Of a stretch of 64,000 nt of DNA, positions 44,156-51,308 are shown piece by piece; position 1 is the stretch's first letter; the number at the start of each line of letters is the position of its first letter. The stretch is from Streptomyces sp. Je 1-369 (lineage in GTDB: Bacteria; Actinomycetota; Actinomycetes; Streptomycetales; Streptomycetaceae): assembly GCF_026810505.1 (NCBI RefSeq), contig NZ_CP101750.1, positions 6,932,515 to 6,996,514 on the forward strand. The letters are read 5' to 3'. The notes under the pieces are model-generated. The model was not told where the DNA came from. It did not search any database and saw nothing but the letters and a program-made list of their open reading frames with translations. The position numbers were made by a program, and so were the translations under genes.

Positions 44156-44720
44156 ATGTTCGCGATACCCCTGGGAGACGGCGCCGAACTGCGCCCGCTG
44201 GAACCGTGGCAGGCCGAGGAGTTCCTCGCGCACATGGACCGCGGCCGCGACTACATCGGACGCTACGTCGGACTCCCCGACATCACCGCCGACCTGCCCT
44301 CCGCGCGCCTGGCTCCAGGTCTTCGCCGACAAGGCCGCCGCGGACACCGGCCGGCTGTACGGCATCCGGCTCGAAGGACGACTCGTCGGCGGCGTTCTCC
44401 TGCGGGCCTTCGACGCGGCGTCGGGCACGTGCGAGGCGGGCTGCTGGCTGGAACCGGACGCCTCCGGTCAGGGTCTGGTGACACGTGCGGTACGCGTCGT
44501 CGTCGACTGGGCGATCGAGGTGCGCGGCATGCACCGCGTGGAGTGGCGGGTGGCCCCGGAGAACACGCCGAGCATCAACGTCGCCAAGCGCCTCGGCATG
44601 AGCCGCGAAGGCCGCCTGCGCGAGGACGACCCCTACCGGGGCGTACGGCAGGACACCGAGATCTGGTCGGTGCCGGCGTCGGAGTGGCGCGGTGTTCAGC
44701 CGCGGCCCATGTCGGCGTAG
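44156..44720 (+). pseudogene. GNAT-family N-acetyltransferase with frameshift
   Basis: The gene starts at ATG 44156 after GGAGG and reads MFAIPLGDGAELRPLEPWQA as far as ITADLPSAR. The next frame then supplies the rest, AWLQVFADKAAADTGRLYGI, LVGGVLLRAFD, GQGLVTRAVRVVVDWAIEVR and VAPENTPSINVAKRLGMSR. Together they form a complete RimJ/L-like acetyltransferase of about 188 residues. The break lies in the GC dinucleotide run at 44302-44309 and is consistent with loss of two bases. Either the gene is inactivated or there is a sequencing error. Its last 25 bases overlap the convergent membrane-protein gene. Confidence 0.75.
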
Positions 44721-45241
44721 AGCGCTATCTGGATGCCGAGACCGACGAGCGCGGCGCTCTCGACGACGGAGAGCGTGAGCAGCGGCCACGTCAGATGGCC
44801 GTGGATCCAGAAGACGGTCAGGGCGGCCGCGGGGCTGACGCAGAAGGCCAACAGGTCCACGGCGAGCTGGAGTCTTTTGCGGGTGCCGCGCCGCTGGTCC
44901 CGACGGTGCGCCGCCTCCCAGCCGAACACGCCGGCACCCTCCACCACGGCGGCGAGGCCGGGGGTCAGCTCGGTCCGGATGTACTGCCCGATGGCGGAGA
45001 TCTTCTCGTCGTTGACCAGGTAGGTCCAGCCGAGCAGGACGGAGAGGGGCGGCAGGAGCAGGAGCAGTGCCGTACGGCCGGTGGCCGGGATCGTCGCGGC
45101 GATCACCGCGGCGGTGGCGGCGAGCATGGCGTAGATGAGGTTGTCCCGGAGGGTGATGCGGCTCTTCTGCTCGGCCTTCAGCTGCTCGTACTCCACGAGC
45201 AGCACGCGCCCCAGCGTCACTTCTTCCGGCTCTTCCGTCAT
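44696..45241 (-). CDS. Small multi-pass membrane protein, third gene of the candidate conflict operon
   Basis: This 181-residue protein has an N-terminal amphipathic stretch (LGRVLLVEYEQLKAEQKSRI) followed by two hydrophobic helices near residues 34-52 and 57-75. A charged loop (EAAHRRDQRRGTRKR) and two more helices near 125-172 follow. No known domain was recognised. It is separated by 16 bases from the nucleosidase gene and probably co-translated with it. The layout, with two pairs of helices around a basic loop, resembles small membrane effectors of bacterial immune operons, but that is inference. The ATG at 45241 has GGGAGGG directly upstream. Confidence 0.75.
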   Translation of the reverse strand: MTEEPEEVTLGRVLLVEYEQLKAEQKSRITLRDNLIYAMLAATAAVIAATIPATGRTALLLLLPPLSVLLGWTYLVNDEKISAIGQYIRTELTPGLAAVVEGAGVFGWEAAHRRDQRRGTRKRLQLAVDLLAFCVSPAAALTVFWIHGHLTWPLLTLSVVESAALVGLGIQIALYADMGRG

Positions 45242-45257
45242 CCCTCCCCCCCGTGCT

Positions 45258-46229
45258 TTACGTGAGGTGGGGGAGCAGGGAGACGAACACGACCGCGGCG
45301 TTCCTGGCGGCGATCTCGTGATGGCTGTCGTCCTTGTACGAGTCCGCCGCGTCGGAGATCCCGCGGACGACGAGCCACGCCTGCGCGGCGCCGGAACCGC
45401 CGAGGGACGCGTGGACGGCCGTCGCGAGGCCCGCGCCCTCCGTCTCCACGGCGAGGATCTTCTCGTTGTACTCGCGCAGATAGCGTCGCTCGTCGGCCCG
45501 TACGTCCGCGAGGACGGCCTCCCCGGACCCGATCGGACCGCGCAGCGCACGGTGGCCGGGGGAGTGGGGCAGCGGCCAGGGCTCGCCGTGGGCCGTGAAG
45601 AAACCGTTGACGGCGTGCTGGACGCCCGCCGTCACGGTGTGGCCGCGGCCCCTGCGCAGCACGCCGTCCTGGGTCACCTTGCGCGGCTCGTAGTGGATGA
45701 CCTCCTGCGCGACGACGACATCGCCCAGGCGCGCGTCCGGGTGGATGGAACCGGCGATGCCCACGAGGGCGGTCAGGCGTGGGGCGTACTCCCTGCGCAG
45801 CTCGTCGACCGTGCTGCCGGCGGAGTGCTGGCCGGGGAGCAGGGACTGGGTGACCGCTACGCGCACTGTCGGCCCGGGGTGCTCGCGGGTGAACTCGTGG
45901 AAGACGGTGCCCTGTCGGGTGCGGGCCTCGGCGTGAGAGCCCCACTTCGAGAGCTCGTCGAGTACGGCGCGGGTCTCCACGCTGAGCACGGTGACGATGC
46001 CCACGTCCCAGGCGGGTGCGGCTTGCGAGGTGTCCTGCGGGGTGGCGGTCGCGGGGGTGGGCGCAGGTGCGGGCGAGGCTGTGACGCCGTGCTGCGTCAC
46101 TCTCGTGCCCTTGCCCATGGCGACCGCGCCGTTGACGGTGACGTTCCCGCTGCCGCTGTTCTCGATCCCGTAATTGCTCATGCTCGGACTCGTGCTCGTG
46201 CCCGTGCTCCTGCCCGTTTTGTTGCTCAT
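45258..46229 (-). CDS. MTA/SAH-nucleosidase-like (PNP/UDP phosphorylase superfamily) protein with N-terminal homotypic motif
   Basis: This 323-residue protein has a flexible N terminus, then a nucleosidase domain from about residue 74. The catalytic residues of MTA/SAH nucleosidase are present by alignment from memory: Glu85 (in VLSVETRAV), Glu264 (in AVETEGAGL) and Asp293 (in RGISDAAD), plus ALVGIAGSIHPDARLGDVVV. It should hydrolyse an N-glycosidic bond in a nucleoside. Residues 21-46 contain a short motif (GIENSGSGNV, then AVAMGKGTRV) that is repeated at the C terminus of the upstream membrane protein. This is unlike housekeeping nucleosidases. The start at 46229 has GGGGGG six bases upstream. 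A Ser/Thr repeat follows it. The neighbours suggest signalling or immunity, not methionine salvage. Confidence 0.85.
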   Translation of the reverse strand: MSNKTGRSTGTSTSPSMSNYGIENSGSGNVTVNGAVAMGKGTRVTQHGVTASPAPAPTPATATPQDTSQAAPAWDVGIVTVLSVETRAVLDELSKWGSHAEARTRQGTVFHEFTREHPGPTVRVAVTQSLLPGQHSAGSTVDELRREYAPRLTALVGIAGSIHPDARLGDVVVAQEVIHYEPRKVTQDGVLRRGRGHTVTAGVQHAVNGFFTAHGEPWPLPHSPGHRALRGPIGSGEAVLADVRADERRYLREYNEKILAVETEGAGLATAVHASLGGSGAAQAWLVVRGISDAADSYKDDSHHEIAARNAAVVFVSLLPHLT

Positions 46230-46245
46230 CGGGAACCCCCCGGTG

Positions 46246-47796
46246 TCACTTGGATACGCTCGTGTTCTCGCCCATCGCCGTGTCCCCCAACTCGACATTG
46301 CCGGAGCCGGTGTTGATGACCCCGTTGTTGAGGATGGCGGTGGCCCGCTGCAGGAACTCCGTGGTGTCGACGCCGTGTTCCTTGAGGAACTCCCCGACCG
46401 TGGCGAGCAGTCGACGTTCGATGACCTTCGAGTGCTTGGCGACGTCGAAGGTCTGGAAGTAGCTCTCGTCGGCCTCGATGGACGCCAGCTCGCGTGCGCT
46501 GATCAGGGCCCCGATGTTGTTGCCGCGCTTGAGGCTCGCCGCCGTCGCGTCGGGCGCCGCACCCAGGGAGCCGAGGAGCAGCGAGACGTCGCCCAGCAGC
46601 CGTAAGGGGGCGCGGGCGGCCACGGGAAGGTGCAGCAGGCCGACGAAGGCGGCCCGGACCACCGCCATGCGCCCCGTCCTGCCGACGACGTCGACCGCGT
46701 GGTACTCCAGCCGCGTCGGCGCGAGCCCGCACGTGGTGAACTCGATGTAGAGGGTGCGCCCTTGGAGCGATACGTGGACGAATATGGACGTCACCAGGTC
46801 GCCGCCCCACGACTCGACCCGGCAGGTCAGATAGTGGCGGGCGGTCTCGGAGGGACTGTCGAGCATGTGCCGCACCAGGTCGGCACCCGGAGCTCCTGCC
46901 AACTCGTGTGCGTAGCCCATCGCGTAACGGCCCTCCACGAAGAGGGAGTCGGCCACCATGAGCCCCGGCAGTCTCGTCTCGGGATCGTCCTCCGTGCCCA
47001 ACGCGGTGATGGCCCGGCGCAGTTCCTCCACGAGATCCCAGGTGGGGAACGGCTTCTTCGTGAACTCCACGTCCTTCTCGCCGCCGATCCCCTTCGTCTC
47101 GACGAGCCGCTGGGCGAAGGACCAGGTCCCCAGACGCCGACCGCTGCCGATGAACGGCTCCTTCGCGGTGTAGACGACTATCGGATGCCGCTGCTGACCG
47201 TCGATGACGGAGAGCCGCCGGTTCGTCCGCAGGGGCCGGTCCGCCTCCAGCCCCGCCCGCAACCCGTTCAGGGCGAGCTGGCGCAGGACCGACGCCGTCG
47301 CGAGGATGAGACAGGGGGTCACGGCGATCACGGCGGCCGCCGCGAAACCCCGCGACCCGTCGTTCGCGACCAGGACAGCGAGGGCCACGACGGTGGCAAG
47401 CGCCGCGGCAACGAGTGTGTGTTTCTCACCTGTTGACGGCGGGACACCGGCCCGTCCGGAGGAGCGCGCGGCGAACGAGACGAGGAGCGTGAGGTCGACG
47501 AGCACCGCCGTGGCGAAGAACGCGGCGGCGGGCCGGGCGACGTACGCCGCGCAGAGGACCGCGAGGATCAGCGCGTCCGCGATCGCGGCAAGCCACCAGG
47601 CGCGCCAGGCGTGCGCGAGGACGGGGACGAGGTCGTAGCCGTAGGAGGGTGCGACGCGGCGTTTGCGCGCGTTGTAGACCTGCTGGATGACGGCGGTGCG
47701 GTACGGGGCGTCCAGGTACACGCCTGCGCACATGCGCCGCGTAGCGGCTCGGTCCTGCTTACCCAATGCCCCCACGGGCGTCTCGGGTATGGCCAT
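46246..47796 (-). CDS. Four-helix membrane protein with C-terminal homotypic motif
   Basis: This 516-residue protein begins with a soluble N-terminal segment (RRMCAGVYLDAPYRTAVIQQ then NARKRRVAPSYGYDLVPVLA), then about four helices at residues 66-170. A cytoplasmic region of over 300 residues follows. The last 25 residues carry GVINTGSGNV then DTAMGENTSV, the same motif as in the N terminus of the next protein. No enzymatic motif was recognised. It is the first gene of a three-gene operon and could be a membrane sensor that recruits the nucleosidase through the shared motif. The ATG at 47796 follows GGGGGAAAG. Function unknown. Confidence 0.78.
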   Translation of the reverse strand: MAIPETPVGALGKQDRAATRRMCAGVYLDAPYRTAVIQQVYNARKRRVAPSYGYDLVPVLAHAWRAWWLAAIADALILAVLCAAYVARPAAAFFATAVLVDLTLLVSFAARSSGRAGVPPSTGEKHTLVAAALATVVALAVLVANDGSRGFAAAAVIAVTPCLILATASVLRQLALNGLRAGLEADRPLRTNRRLSVIDGQQRHPIVVYTAKEPFIGSGRRLGTWSFAQRLVETKGIGGEKDVEFTKKPFPTWDLVEELRRAITALGTEDDPETRLPGLMVADSLFVEGRYAMGYAHELAGAPGADLVRHMLDSPSETARHYLTCRVESWGGDLVTSIFVHVSLQGRTLYIEFTTCGLAPTRLEYHAVDVVGRTGRMAVVRAAFVGLLHLPVAARAPLRLLGDVSLLLGSLGAAPDATAASLKRGNNIGALISARELASIEADESYFQTFDVAKHSKVIERRLLATVGEFLKEHGVDTTEFLQRATAILNNGVINTGSGNVELGDTAMGENTSVSK

Positions 47797-48305: not shown

Positions 48306-48383
48306 TCCGAGATCTCGCTGTGCCGCGCGCCGACCGGCGTGCGCGGGTGCGGGTGCCGGGGCCTCCCCTGTGAAGGGTTTCCC

Positions 48384-48461
48384 TTGTCTTCCTCGTCTTC
48401 CTCGACGTCTTCTCCCTCTTCTTCGTCGTCTTTCTCTTCTCTGTTCTCCTCGGGTACCTCG
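48384..48461. repeat. Serine-codon repeat tract at the start of rsgA
   Basis: Imperfect TCTTCC, TCGTCT and TCTTCT units encode a run of mostly Ser between the start codon and the first conserved residues of RsgA. Confidence 0.75.
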
Positions 48462-49538
48462 TCGCATCCCCTTGCCCCGTACGGCTGGGACGCGGGCTGG
48501 GAAGCCGAGTTCGCGCCCTACGCGGCGCAAGGTCTCGTACCCGGGCGCGTCGTCCGGGTGGACCGCGGGCAGTGCGACGTCATCACCGCCGACGGCAGCG
48601 TGCGCGCCGACACCGAGTTCGTCACCCCGCGCGACCCGCTGAAGGTCGTGTGCACCGGCGACTGGGTCGCCGTGGACGCGGACGGCGCCGACCCCCGCTA
48701 CGTACAGACGTATCTGCCGCGGCGCACCTCCTTCGTGCGGTCCACCTCGTCCAAGCGGTCCGAGGGGCAGATCCTCGCGGCCAACGTCGACCACTCGATC
48801 ATCGCGGTGTCACTCGCCGCGGAGCTCGACCTCGCGCGGATCGAGCGGTTCCTCGCGCTCGGCTGGGAGTCCGGCGGGCAGCCCGTCGTCGTGCTCAGCA
48901 AGGCCGACCTCGTGCCGGACGCCGCGACGCTCGGGCACCTCGTCGAGGACGTGGAGACCGCCGCGCCCGGCGTGCAGGTGCTCGCCGTCAGCGCCACGTC
49001 CGGAGACGGCGTCGACGTCCTCGCCGCGGTCGTCTCCGGCGGTACGTCGGTGCTGCTCGGGCAGTCCGGCGCGGGCAAGTCGACGCTCGCCAACGCGTTG
49101 GCCGGGGCCGACGTCATGGAGGTCCAGGCGATCCGTGACGTCGACGGCAAGGGGCGGCACACGACGACCACGCGCAACCTCATTCCGCTGCCCGGCGGCG
49201 GGGTCCTCATCGACACGCCCGGACTGCGTGGCGTGGGGCTGTGGGACGCCGAGAGCGGCGTCGGGCAGGTGTTCTCCGAGATCGAGGAACTGGCGACGCG
49301 GTGCCGGTTCCACGACTGCGCCCACGATGCGGAGCCGGGGTGCGCCGTGCTCGACGCGGTCGACTCCGGTGGCCTTCCCCAGCGCCGCCTCGACAGCTAC
49401 CGCAAGCTGATCCGCGAGAACCAGCGCATCGTCGCCAAGACGGACGCGCGGGCCCGCGCGGAGATGCGGCGGCAGTGGCGGTTGCGGGGGGCGGAGGGCC
49501 GTGCGGCGCTCGACGTCAAGCGGGGGCGCTTGCGCTGA
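48384..49538 (+). CDS. rsgA: Ribosome small-subunit-dependent GTPase RsgA
   Basis: This circularly permuted GTPase acts late in 30S ribosome assembly. The G motifs occur in the order G4 (VVLSKADLV), G1 (LGQSGAGKSTLANAL) and G3 (LIDTPGLRGVG), with KGRHTTTTR as the G2 region. The C-terminal zinc site is C-x4-C-x-H-x5-C in RCRFHDCAHDAEPGC. An OB-like domain (RVVRVDRGQCDVITADGSVR) precedes the GTPase part. The TTG at 48384 (384 residues) has GAAGGG upstream and is preferred. A GTG at 48339 would add 15 residues. The first 30 residues are a Ser-rich repeat tract that varies between species. The conserved part begins HPLAPYGWDAGWE. Confidence 0.9.
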   Translation: MSSSSSSTSSPSSSSSFSSLFSSGTSSHPLAPYGWDAGWEAEFAPYAAQGLVPGRVVRVDRGQCDVITADGSVRADTEFVTPRDPLKVVCTGDWVAVDADGADPRYVQTYLPRRTSFVRSTSSKRSEGQILAANVDHSIIAVSLAAELDLARIERFLALGWESGGQPVVVLSKADLVPDAATLGHLVEDVETAAPGVQVLAVSATSGDGVDVLAAVVSGGTSVLLGQSGAGKSTLANALAGADVMEVQAIRDVDGKGRHTTTTRNLIPLPGGGVLIDTPGLRGVGLWDAESGVGQVFSEIEELATRCRFHDCAHDAEPGCAVLDAVDSGGLPQRRLDSYRKLIRENQRIVAKTDARARAEMRRQWRLRGAEGRAALDVKRGRLR

Positions 49539-49889: not shown

Positions 49890-51308
49890 GTGATCGATGA
49901 AGAGACCAGGTATGAGGCCGTGCGGAGCCGGGATGCTCGGTTTGACGGTGCGTTCTTCTTCGCCGTTCGGACCACCGGCATCTACTGTCGGCCCAGCTGC
50001 CCCGCCGTCACCCCTAAGCGTCAGAACGTCCGCTTCTACACCACCGCTGCCGCCGCCCAGACCTCCGGCTTCCGTGCCTGTCGGCGGTGCAGGCCGGATG
50101 CTGTTCCCGGGTCCGCCGACTGGAACGTGCGTGCGGACGTCGTAGGGCGGGCCATGCGCATGATCGGTGACGGGGTCGTCGACCGGGAAGGCGTACCGGG
50201 GCTCGCCGTGCGGCTGGGGTACAGCGCCCGGCAGGTGCAGCGGCAGCTCACCGCCGAGCTGGGCGCAGGCCCCGTCGCCCTCGCGCGGGCGCAGCGCGCG
50301 CACACCGCCCGCGTGCTGCTGCAGACCACGGACCTGCCCGTCACCGAGATCGCCTTCGCCGCAGGGTTCGCCAGCGTGCGGCAGTTCAACGACACGATCA
50401 GGACCGTATACGCGCTGACGCCGACCGCCCTGCGCGCCGCGGCCCCCCGTACGGGCGCCGCCCGGGCCACCCCCGCCGCAGGCATCCCGCTCCGCCTCGC
50501 CCACCGCGGGCCCTATCACGCCGACACCGTCTTCGACCTGCTCGCCGAGGAGACCGTCACCGGCATCGAGGAGGTCATCGGCGAACGAGGTGCCCGTACC
50601 TATCGGCGTACGCTCCGGCTGCCCCACGGCACGGGCATCGTCGCCGTCGAGGAGACCCACCACGGCGCCACGAGCGGCCACGGCACCGGCACGGGGTCCG
50701 CCAGTGAGGCCGTGCACCGCGGCGGGTGGCTCGATGCCCGGCTGCACCTCACGGACCTGCGCGACCTCACCACCGCCGTGCAGCGCCTGCGCCGCCTCTT
50801 CGACCTGGACGCCGACCCGTACGCCGTGGACGAGCGGCTCGGCGCCGACCCCCGGCTCGCCCCGCTCGTCGCCGCCAGGCCCGGGCTGCGGTCGCCCGGC
50901 ACCGCCGACCCCGAGGAGTTCGCGGTGCGTGCACTGGTGGGGCGGGAGGGGGCGGGACGCCTCGTGCGGGAGTACGGCGCCGTGCTCGACGCCGCGTGCG
51001 GCGGGCTCACCCACACCTTTCCCGCCCCGGCCGCGCTCGCCGCCGCACCGGGCACACTCGGCGCGCTGGCCACGGCGCTCGCCGACGGCACCCTGCGCCT
51101 GGACGCGGGCGCGGACCGGGACGACGCGGAGGTGGCGCTGACGGCCCTGCCCGGGGTCGACGCGCGGACGGCCGCGGTCATCCGGATGCGGGCGCTCGGC
51201 GACCCGGACGTGGCGCTGCCCGGCGGGCCGGAGCCGGTCCTCGACGCGTGGCGCCCCTGGCGGTCCTACGCCCAGCACCACCTCGACCTCGCCCTCACCG
51301 GCGCCTGA
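49890..51308 (+). CDS. AdaA/AlkA fusion: methyl-responsive regulator with degenerate glycosylase domain
   Basis: This 472-residue protein combines three parts. The Ada N-domain has the zinc/methyl-acceptor cysteines in TTGIYCRPSCPAVTPKR and GFRACRRCRPDA. An AraC-type helix-turn-helix follows (GLAVRLGYSARQVQRQLTAE and EIAFAAGFASVRQFNDTIRT). The AlkA part includes LRLAHRGPYHADTVFDLLAE and the helix-hairpin-helix LPGVDARTAAVIRMRALGDP. AlkA glycosylases need an aspartate just after this hairpin (in LPDDYL in E. coli). Here the sequence is DVALPGGPEPVLDAWRPWRS, with that Asp absent and about 20 residues missing. The regulator part looks intact, but base excision is doubtful. Confidence 0.88.
   Translation: MIDEETRYEAVRSRDARFDGAFFFAVRTTGIYCRPSCPAVTPKRQNVRFYTTAAAAQTSGFRACRRCRPDAVPGSADWNVRADVVGRAMRMIGDGVVDREGVPGLAVRLGYSARQVQRQLTAELGAGPVALARAQRAHTARVLLQTTDLPVTEIAFAAGFASVRQFNDTIRTVYALTPTALRAAAPRTGAARATPAAGIPLRLAHRGPYHADTVFDLLAEETVTGIEEVIGERGARTYRRTLRLPHGTGIVAVEETHHGATSGHGTGTGSASEAVHRGGWLDARLHLTDLRDLTTAVQRLRRLFDLDADPYAVDERLGADPRLAPLVAARPGLRSPGTADPEEFAVRALVGREGAGRLVREYGAVLDAACGGLTHTFPAPAALAAAPGTLGALATALADGTLRLDAGADRDDAEVALTALPGVDARTAAVIRMRALGDPDVALPGGPEPVLDAWRPWRSYAQHHLDLALTGA

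Follow-up and report, generated by a model that had tools for sequence, protein, structure and literature searches.

Does a cluster of three genes in Streptomyces sp. Je 1-369 encode a signalling system in which a membrane receptor and an enzyme recognise each other through a short motif common to both? The window, which is the whole stretch of 64,000 nucleotides that was analysed (contig NZ_CP101750.1, positions 6,932,515 to 6,996,514), contains on its minus strand the genes of a receptor-like protein with four transmembrane (TM) helices, of a nucleosidase and of a second membrane protein. In related actinobacteria, the match between receptor tail and effector head was found usually to follow the gene pair even where the motif has changed or another protein of immune type has taken the place of the enzyme, which at the level of sequence points to a kind of bacterial immune signalling that is free of NOD-like receptors (NLRs). 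The locus is probably a two-gene (here three-gene) NLR-free homotypic signalosome of the amyloid type, where a sensor in the membrane would nucleate the effector, a purine nucleosidase. The features of the locus are as follows, with positions counted in the window.

46246..47796, minus strand: gene of the receptor-like protein, 516 amino acids, with four TM helices, a conserved domain of about 250 amino acids, a C-terminal stalk and a motif tail
47284..47592, minus strand: four predicted TM helices of the receptor-like protein (residues 69-171), from hydropathy of the protein and the family alignment
46477..47229, minus strand: conserved receptor domain (residues 190-440), candidate sensor/transducer, from the family alignment; predicted to be cytoplasmic
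46249..46326, minus strand: receptor tail motif (residues 491-516)
45258..46229, minus strand: gene of the PNP/MTAN-superfamily nucleosidase, 323 amino acids, predicted effector
46092..46172, minus strand: nucleosidase head motif (residues 20-46), the counterpart of the receptor tail motif
45294..46001, minus strand: PNP_UDP_1 catalytic domain (residues 77-312) with E85, E264 and D293
44696..45241, minus strand: gene of a four-TM accessory protein, 181 amino acids, without the motif; its family also adjoins nucleosidases elsewhere, at some loci with NLR genes

The three open reading frames were confirmed where an earlier note on this DNA had placed them, and hydropathy agreed with its description of a four-TM first protein and a membrane third protein. 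Gene order and spacing were read from the DNA, with intergenic gaps of 16 bases each and a G-rich stretch 5' of the ATG of the nucleosidase gene at 46229.

Matching of receptor tails and partner heads

The last 50 residues of the window receptor aligned to the first 80 residues of the nucleosidase with a score of 62, which was reached by 1 of 1000 shuffles of the tail, so the tail-to-head match that the earlier note had seen was upheld. When the 8.82-Mb genome was searched with a profile of the 26-position motif, this tail and this head were the only two places found, with E-values of 1.8e-12 and 7.9e-10, the next best match having an E-value of 1.15.

The same comparison was made at the other receptor loci (numbered with L), where the last 50 residues of each receptor were aligned to the first 80 of the next gene's product and the tail was shuffled 200 times. 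The next gene was called roughly, by G+C content at third codon positions (GC3), start codon and distance. The resulting 105 pairs exclude L001 (the same as L030), L002 and L029 (weak, judged not to be receptors), and L015, L018 and L053 (no next gene called); L009 and L121, and likewise L027 and L096, are identical over the compared stretches, and both members of each are among the 105. No more than 2 of 200 shuffles did as well as the real tail in 99 of the 105 pairs, and none did so in 96. By batch, these figures were 74 and 71 of 80 pairs, and 25 of 25 pairs without any such shuffle. A score of 42 was reached by 97 of all 105 pairs. As a specificity control, 466 further open frames at 24 loci (at least 100 amino acids, GC3 at least 0.75, gene status unchecked) were scored; one reached this value, versus 21 of the 25 pairs of the same loci. 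The earlier note's own counter-hypothesis, a widespread low-complexity terminus without a link to gene pairs, does not describe these results.

A regular expression for the nucleosidase head anchored only 6 of 61 sequences and was replaced by a profile built from receptor tails alone. Within the first 60 residues, this profile matched 31 of the 73 nucleosidase hits at E<=1e-3 and 41 at E<=0.1, as against 0 and 2 of 730 shuffled sequences, respectively. The 12 most distant nucleosidases had no tail-like head by this profile. Because the profile misses most of the diverged tails in other loci, pairs were compared directly.

Co-divergence of tail and head

Pairwise comparison showed that the letters of the motif differ greatly between loci, with tail and head changing together. 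Examples of tails with their heads are L007 (VNNVNGHFANIGGRSQF with NNVTGHFANFGGRQNF), L045 (GVFIGSMSGGAVATGSGAQ with GVAVGRFSGGAIATGDGSR) and L028 (GNMTVGNNNNVTQ with GNVTIGDHNKVTQ). Insertions are paired as well: in S. alboflavus (L003) both tail and head have one extra residue, and in S. flavofungini (L004) both carry a longer insert. When receptors were clustered at 40% identity and one pair was taken from each of the 25 clusters, cognate pairs had a mean score of 68.8 versus 33.3 for non-cognate pairs, and 0 of 20,000 permutations did as well; the count was also 0 with 37 and 50 receptor clusters. As judged from these alignments, we were able to show that the pairing is specific to the gene pair and that tail and head co-diverge.

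Exchange of partners

The 105 next genes comprised 43 nucleosidases, 59 short proteins and 3 others, and some of the short ones (e.g., L014, L020b and L089) were probably mis-called. Twenty non-nucleosidase partners were scanned with Pfam. One was a TIR protein (L011, E 1.4e-11), one carried the bacterial Death-like domain (bDLD) bDLD3 (L005, E 3.3e-12), four were DUF5955 proteins (L032, L044, L055 and L084) and four carried EAD1 (L093, L094, L095 and L145); the other ten had no Pfam family above the cut-off, five of them with a weak DUF5955 match. At L010 a nucleosidase was fused to bDLD3 (E 1.7e-25). The EAD1 partners carry matched heads after TM receptors, weakly so in L094 (10/200 shuffles). 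Domain matches of this kind show an exchange of the predicted partner for TIR, bDLD3, EAD1 or DUF5955 proteins, and the matched heads of the TIR, bDLD3 and EAD1 partners strengthened the reading of the motif as a homotypic adaptor, as had been suggested earlier.

In a FastTree phylogeny of 103 receptors (midpoint root, one of each identical pair), one clade of 44 rows with an SH-like support of 98 held 41 receptors with a nucleosidase, one with the nucleosidase-bDLD3 fusion, one with TIR and one with bDLD3. The window and every locus labelled with a downstream nucleosidase (41) fell within this clade; the exact places of L005 and L011 are unsure because of long branches. In Glycomyces, the nucleosidase gene lies upstream of that of the receptor; by eye, the enzyme carries a similar motif at its C-terminus and a further small motif protein is encoded downstream in several loci.

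The EAD1 partners link the TM-receptor family to EAD networks. The DUF5955 partners and similar proteins have about 115-145 amino acids, motif heads and, by eye, a hydrophobic end stretch; by analogy with Bell they may be membrane-acting executors. The name DUF5955 was not found in the literature searched.

The receptor and its family

Hydropathy of the receptor (P0001) showed TM peaks at about residues 69-87, 90-108, 126-144 and 153-171. Since there are four helices, both ends would lie inside. The conserved domain carries the blocks WSFAQRLV, LPGL and ESWGG..T..VHVSLQGRTLY in the family alignment. P0001 had no Pfam match at E<=1 and eight relatives had no Pfam family above the cut-off; neither NB-ARC nor NACHT was matched in any of these nine proteins. 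No solved relative of the receptor was found by sequence, the best E-value being 0.068 over a short TM stretch, which was taken as chance. Homologues of P0001 at E<=1e-3 numbered 139 (7996 candidates scored). The pattern [IV]LNxG followed by at least 24 motif residues was present in 112 of 120 proteins (P0001 and P0005-P0123), and the commonest letters of the receptor tail read about NGVINTGSGTVNI..SA[VI]G[ED]QASV.

A search across genomes with a single protein had found nothing, and an alignment of 25 sequences was used. At E<=1e-3, 226 of 293 genomes of the order had a match, a count of the broad family because many matches are partial or distant. Members were also found in 48 of 345 genomes of the class, 25 of these 48 being Streptomyces-genus genomes that had already been covered, in 75 of 200 genomes of one other family at E<=1e-20, and in 4 of 35 genomes of another. 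The 27 named loci from the GTDB collection, among them L029, which was judged not to be a receptor, are all from actinobacteria by title. Near relatives of the window system seem to be few: in the order search only the own genome scored above 400 bits, and the next scored 330. A plasmid search gave four records, each below 60% identity and none covering 80%, and plasmid spread of the window system is therefore not supported.

The nucleosidase

The second window protein matched PNP_UDP_1 at E 4.3e-13, in agreement with the nucleosidase type assigned to it before, and the three catalytic residues reported as kept (E85, E264 and D293) were invariant across 57 aligned homologues. Among structures in the PDB, nucleosidases of 5'-methylthioadenosine/S-adenosylhomocysteine (MTA/SAH; MTANs) matched the domain at E 2.4e-8, and relatives carry the name MTA/SAH nucleosidase in public records. 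The NCBIfam equivalog cut-offs were far from reached, with 51.3 bits versus 169 for PRK05584 and 27.4 versus 73.8 for TIGR01704. The PADLOC nucleosidase effector profile ('Effector PN-superfamily') matched at E 1.1e-22. The position of an M in MTAN was occupied by T263 in 48 of the 57 aligned nucleosidases; given the role that we assume for the M in MTAN, this is possibly a sign of another substrate. In L123, the receptor-adjacent nucleosidase appears in two overlapping frames (646-1555).

The third membrane protein and synteny

The third protein (P0003) has TM peaks at about residues 35-53, 58-76, 126-144 and 154-172 by hydropathy. The motif was not found at its two ends, where 962 and 776 of 1000 shuffles did as well. 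The motif therefore joins only the first two window proteins; the title of the earlier note, which had the motif join all three, holds for these two and fails for the third, as its own text already had it.

The three genes are syntenic in some relatives; a lack of synteny had been named in the earlier note as a point on which its proposal could fall. Receptor, nucleosidase and third gene are consecutive at L003 (S. alboflavus) and L004 (S. flavofungini). Another four strains have consecutive locus tags for these proteins (AB0N81_00370/75/80, AB0933_00935/40/45, ABZ953_18445/50/55 and ACFVYR_04715/20/25, as named in the source). In L122 and L123, from another family, the third gene's homologue is directly upstream of the receptor and the nucleosidase is downstream. 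No third-gene homologue was matched in the remaining loci of the 110 receptor loci, many of which were searched with 1.5-kb flanks only.

Homologues of P0003 at E<=1e-3 numbered 1410; of 119 genomes from the order, 17 contained its family, the strain's own among them. A nucleosidase, mostly of a more distant subfamily, lay within 1.5-kb flanks in 10 of 17 P0003-family loci outside the window. Three of these family loci have an NB-ARC/TPR gene beside the nucleosidase (L104, 4149-7761; L106, 5802-8826; L113, 2459-6200), and L110 has a TPR gene without an NB-ARC match. The nucleosidase of L104 ends with GDHIDFRGGTFHGPVIGKQ and the NB-ARC/TPR frame beyond the P0003 homologue reads SDHVDFGDGTFFGQVVGKAEY near its start; by eye, this nucleosidase end and NLR start have a common motif of their own, DHxDFxxGxFxGxVxGK. 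With nucleosidase and NB-ARC genes in P0003-family loci, the third protein thus accompanies nucleosidase effectors of both settings, those with an NLR as receptor and those with a TM protein, the window being of the latter kind. Its role as an accessory and as a membrane executor are both possible.

Comparison with known systems

Among bacteria, the NLR amyloid signalosomes that use BASS1-10 motifs and Bell-domain effectors (PMC7889193, PMC8086366) resemble the present system in having neighbouring genes with a common motif of 20-40 residues at the receptor and effector ends, in their occurrence in filamentous actinobacteria and in TIR being among the effectors. They differ in three respects: the window receptor is a four-TM protein instead of an NLR, the window-type motif is at the receptor C-terminus and mostly at the effector N-terminus, which is the reverse order, and the commonest identified partner of TM receptors is a nucleosidase. 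The TM-receptor system would act like a BASS-type signalosome, yet it is outside the NLR-Bell class because it lacks the NLR feature. Matched end motifs of neighbours, paired turnover and exchangeable effectors are, by analogy, the pattern of an amyloid signalosome.

PUASM is the amyloid motif of PNP_UDP effectors in fungi and was shown to fibrillise (PMC9815663). Both systems have a PNP_UDP-fold effector with a terminal motif, an adjacent receptor gene and a TGSGN-type motif core, whereas the fungal receptor is a NACHT NLR with the motif at the effector C-terminus (PMC9815663) and the window receptor has no NACHT match. In pairwise alignment to the window tail and head, the printed PUASM peptide outscored all 5000 shuffles; by profile the likeness was weak, 435 of 20,000 shuffles being as good.

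Through EAD and bacterial Death-like domains, core and effector components encoded by adjacent genes are coupled homotypically (PMC7159879, PMC8195603), and PNPase, TIR, bDLD3 and EAD1 modules are common to both systems, but the window coupler is a motif of about 25 residues and not a folded domain. The accessible parts of these accounts do not name such a TM receptor. No EAD or bDLD was found by Pfam in the three window proteins; they are present in partners at L005, L010, L093-L095 and L145. CBASS and Detocs anti-phage systems have PNP-fold effectors, and the window nucleosidase matches the PADLOC effector profile; however, neither a cyclase nor a phosphorelay gene was noticed among the open frames listed around it. 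The EACC1 'System 4' of actinobacteria likewise has two adjacent genes, a membrane and an effector component and exchangeable effectors, but it has a small single-TM domain and a caspase-type partner (PMC7159879), and the EACC1 domain was not matched in the window proteins. A description of the TM-receptor/nucleosidase family was not found in the literature searched, most subscription papers being outside its coverage.

Whether fungi and bacteria have NLR-independent signalling amyloids was named as an open question in a 2021 review (PMC7889193), and the TM-receptor family is a candidate for a positive answer. If this is true, actinobacteria would gain a membrane-sensor branch of homotypic immune signalling and a bacterial counterpart to the fungal PNP_UDP signalosomes, and a role would be suggested for DUF5955 proteins. 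With many natural motif pairs available, the specificity of pairing is measurable.

Proposed mechanism and alternative explanations

In the proposed mechanism, the four-TM protein would sense a trigger at the membrane through its conserved domain, and the receptor tail of about 26 residues would then be exposed or clustered. The tail may be a beta-rich, probably amyloid-type template for the cognate nucleosidase head, and the nucleosidase assembled at the membrane would use E85/E264/D293 to cleave a purine nucleoside or nucleotide, leading to cell arrest or death. Other PNP-fold immune effectors are thought to arrest or kill the cell by such cleavage. The third membrane protein would be an accessory of nucleosidase-based systems. 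We thus infer a receptor role for the first protein, a cytoplasmic tail, an amyloid state, a trigger, a substrate, toxicity, and an anti-phage or other immune role. Beyond the window, we lean towards a large class of NLR-independent amyloid-type signalosomes in actinobacteria, in which the tails of four-TM receptors would act as templates for interchangeable effectors or adaptors (PNP-fold nucleosidase, TIR, bDLD3, EAD1 and DUF5955), matched motif turnover would insulate parallel pathways, and the nucleosidase branch would carry a PUASM-like motif.

Several results weigh against this interpretation. Six of the 105 pairs failed the shuffle test (L014, L017, L020, L020b, L089 and L094); four of these are from Glycomyces, where the next gene may have been called wrongly or the partner lies upstream, whereas the failures of L089 and L094 are plain. 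The tail profile left 32 of 73 nucleosidase hits unmatched even at E 0.1, two of which lack the N-terminus. The highest-scoring head was the cognate one in only 18 of the 25 cases, and at 30% identity 3304 of 20,000 permutations did as well, although with only three receptor clusters left the test has no power. The likeness to PUASM is weak by profile, so that the core may be convergent as well as of common descent. PADLOC profiles at E<=1e-5 matched enzyme and TPR parts only, and since there were no further matches and the three scanned neighbours are ordinary genes, a defence-island context is absent.

The best surviving alternative, which we consider unlikely, is a constitutive and stable docking of tail and head (e.g., as a beta-solenoid and not an amyloid) that anchors the enzyme at the membrane, where it would serve metabolism or development and have no part in immune signalling. 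The pairing data would be equally expected, and it fits the kept MTAN-type catalytic residues and the match to MTA/SAH nucleosidases in the PDB. However, receptors of this one family also have TIR, bDLD3 and EAD1 partners, which are modules of immune or cell-death type (PMC8195603, PMC7159879), a nucleosidase is itself fused to bDLD3 in L010, and the letters of tail and head motifs change in step, which a fixed metabolic interface would not do.

A pore-forming toxin silenced through its tail by the motif-bearing partner, acting as an inhibitor or antitoxin-like regulator, is more doubtful still. Four TM helices, a small gene cluster and the frequency of short partners (59/105 next genes, a few of them mis-called) would suit it, but the active site kept in the 57 aligned nucleosidases and the TIR partner argue for the partner as executor, and the largest conserved part of the receptor lies outside the TM helices.

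Recent duplication or conversion of DNA between the neighbouring genes is a very improbable source of the likeness of tail and head. The same codon was used at 811 of 1453 identical tail/head residues (0.558), more than the 0.476 expected from codon usage. This excess is modest, and more than two fifths of the identical residues use different codons, so that the likeness is more probably due in the main to selection on the protein than to recent conversion.

An ordinary MTA/SAH nucleosidase beside unrelated membrane genes, with ends alike by low-complexity coincidence, would explain the public-record names of its relatives but is scarcely credible, as the motif has two copies in the genome, 99 of 105 pairs match, 1 of 466 control frames reached the score of 42, and the enzyme is rejected as a housekeeping MTA/SAH nucleosidase by the widely missed equivalog cut-offs (51.3 versus 169 bits).

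Neighbouring genes

By domain scan, the neighbours of the three genes encode a cytochrome P450 (42600-43817), an RsgA GTPase (48339-49538) and an Ada/AlkA-type protein (49890-51308). In the window, a GNAT acetyltransferase reading is apparently split over two frames, one at 44478-44720 and an overlapping plus-strand frame from about 44157; the second piece matched Acetyltransf_3 at E 1.4e-8, and the frame holding the first piece had no match. An intact-looking GNAT (E 2.6e-21) adjoins the third gene's homologue in L109 (6462-7202).

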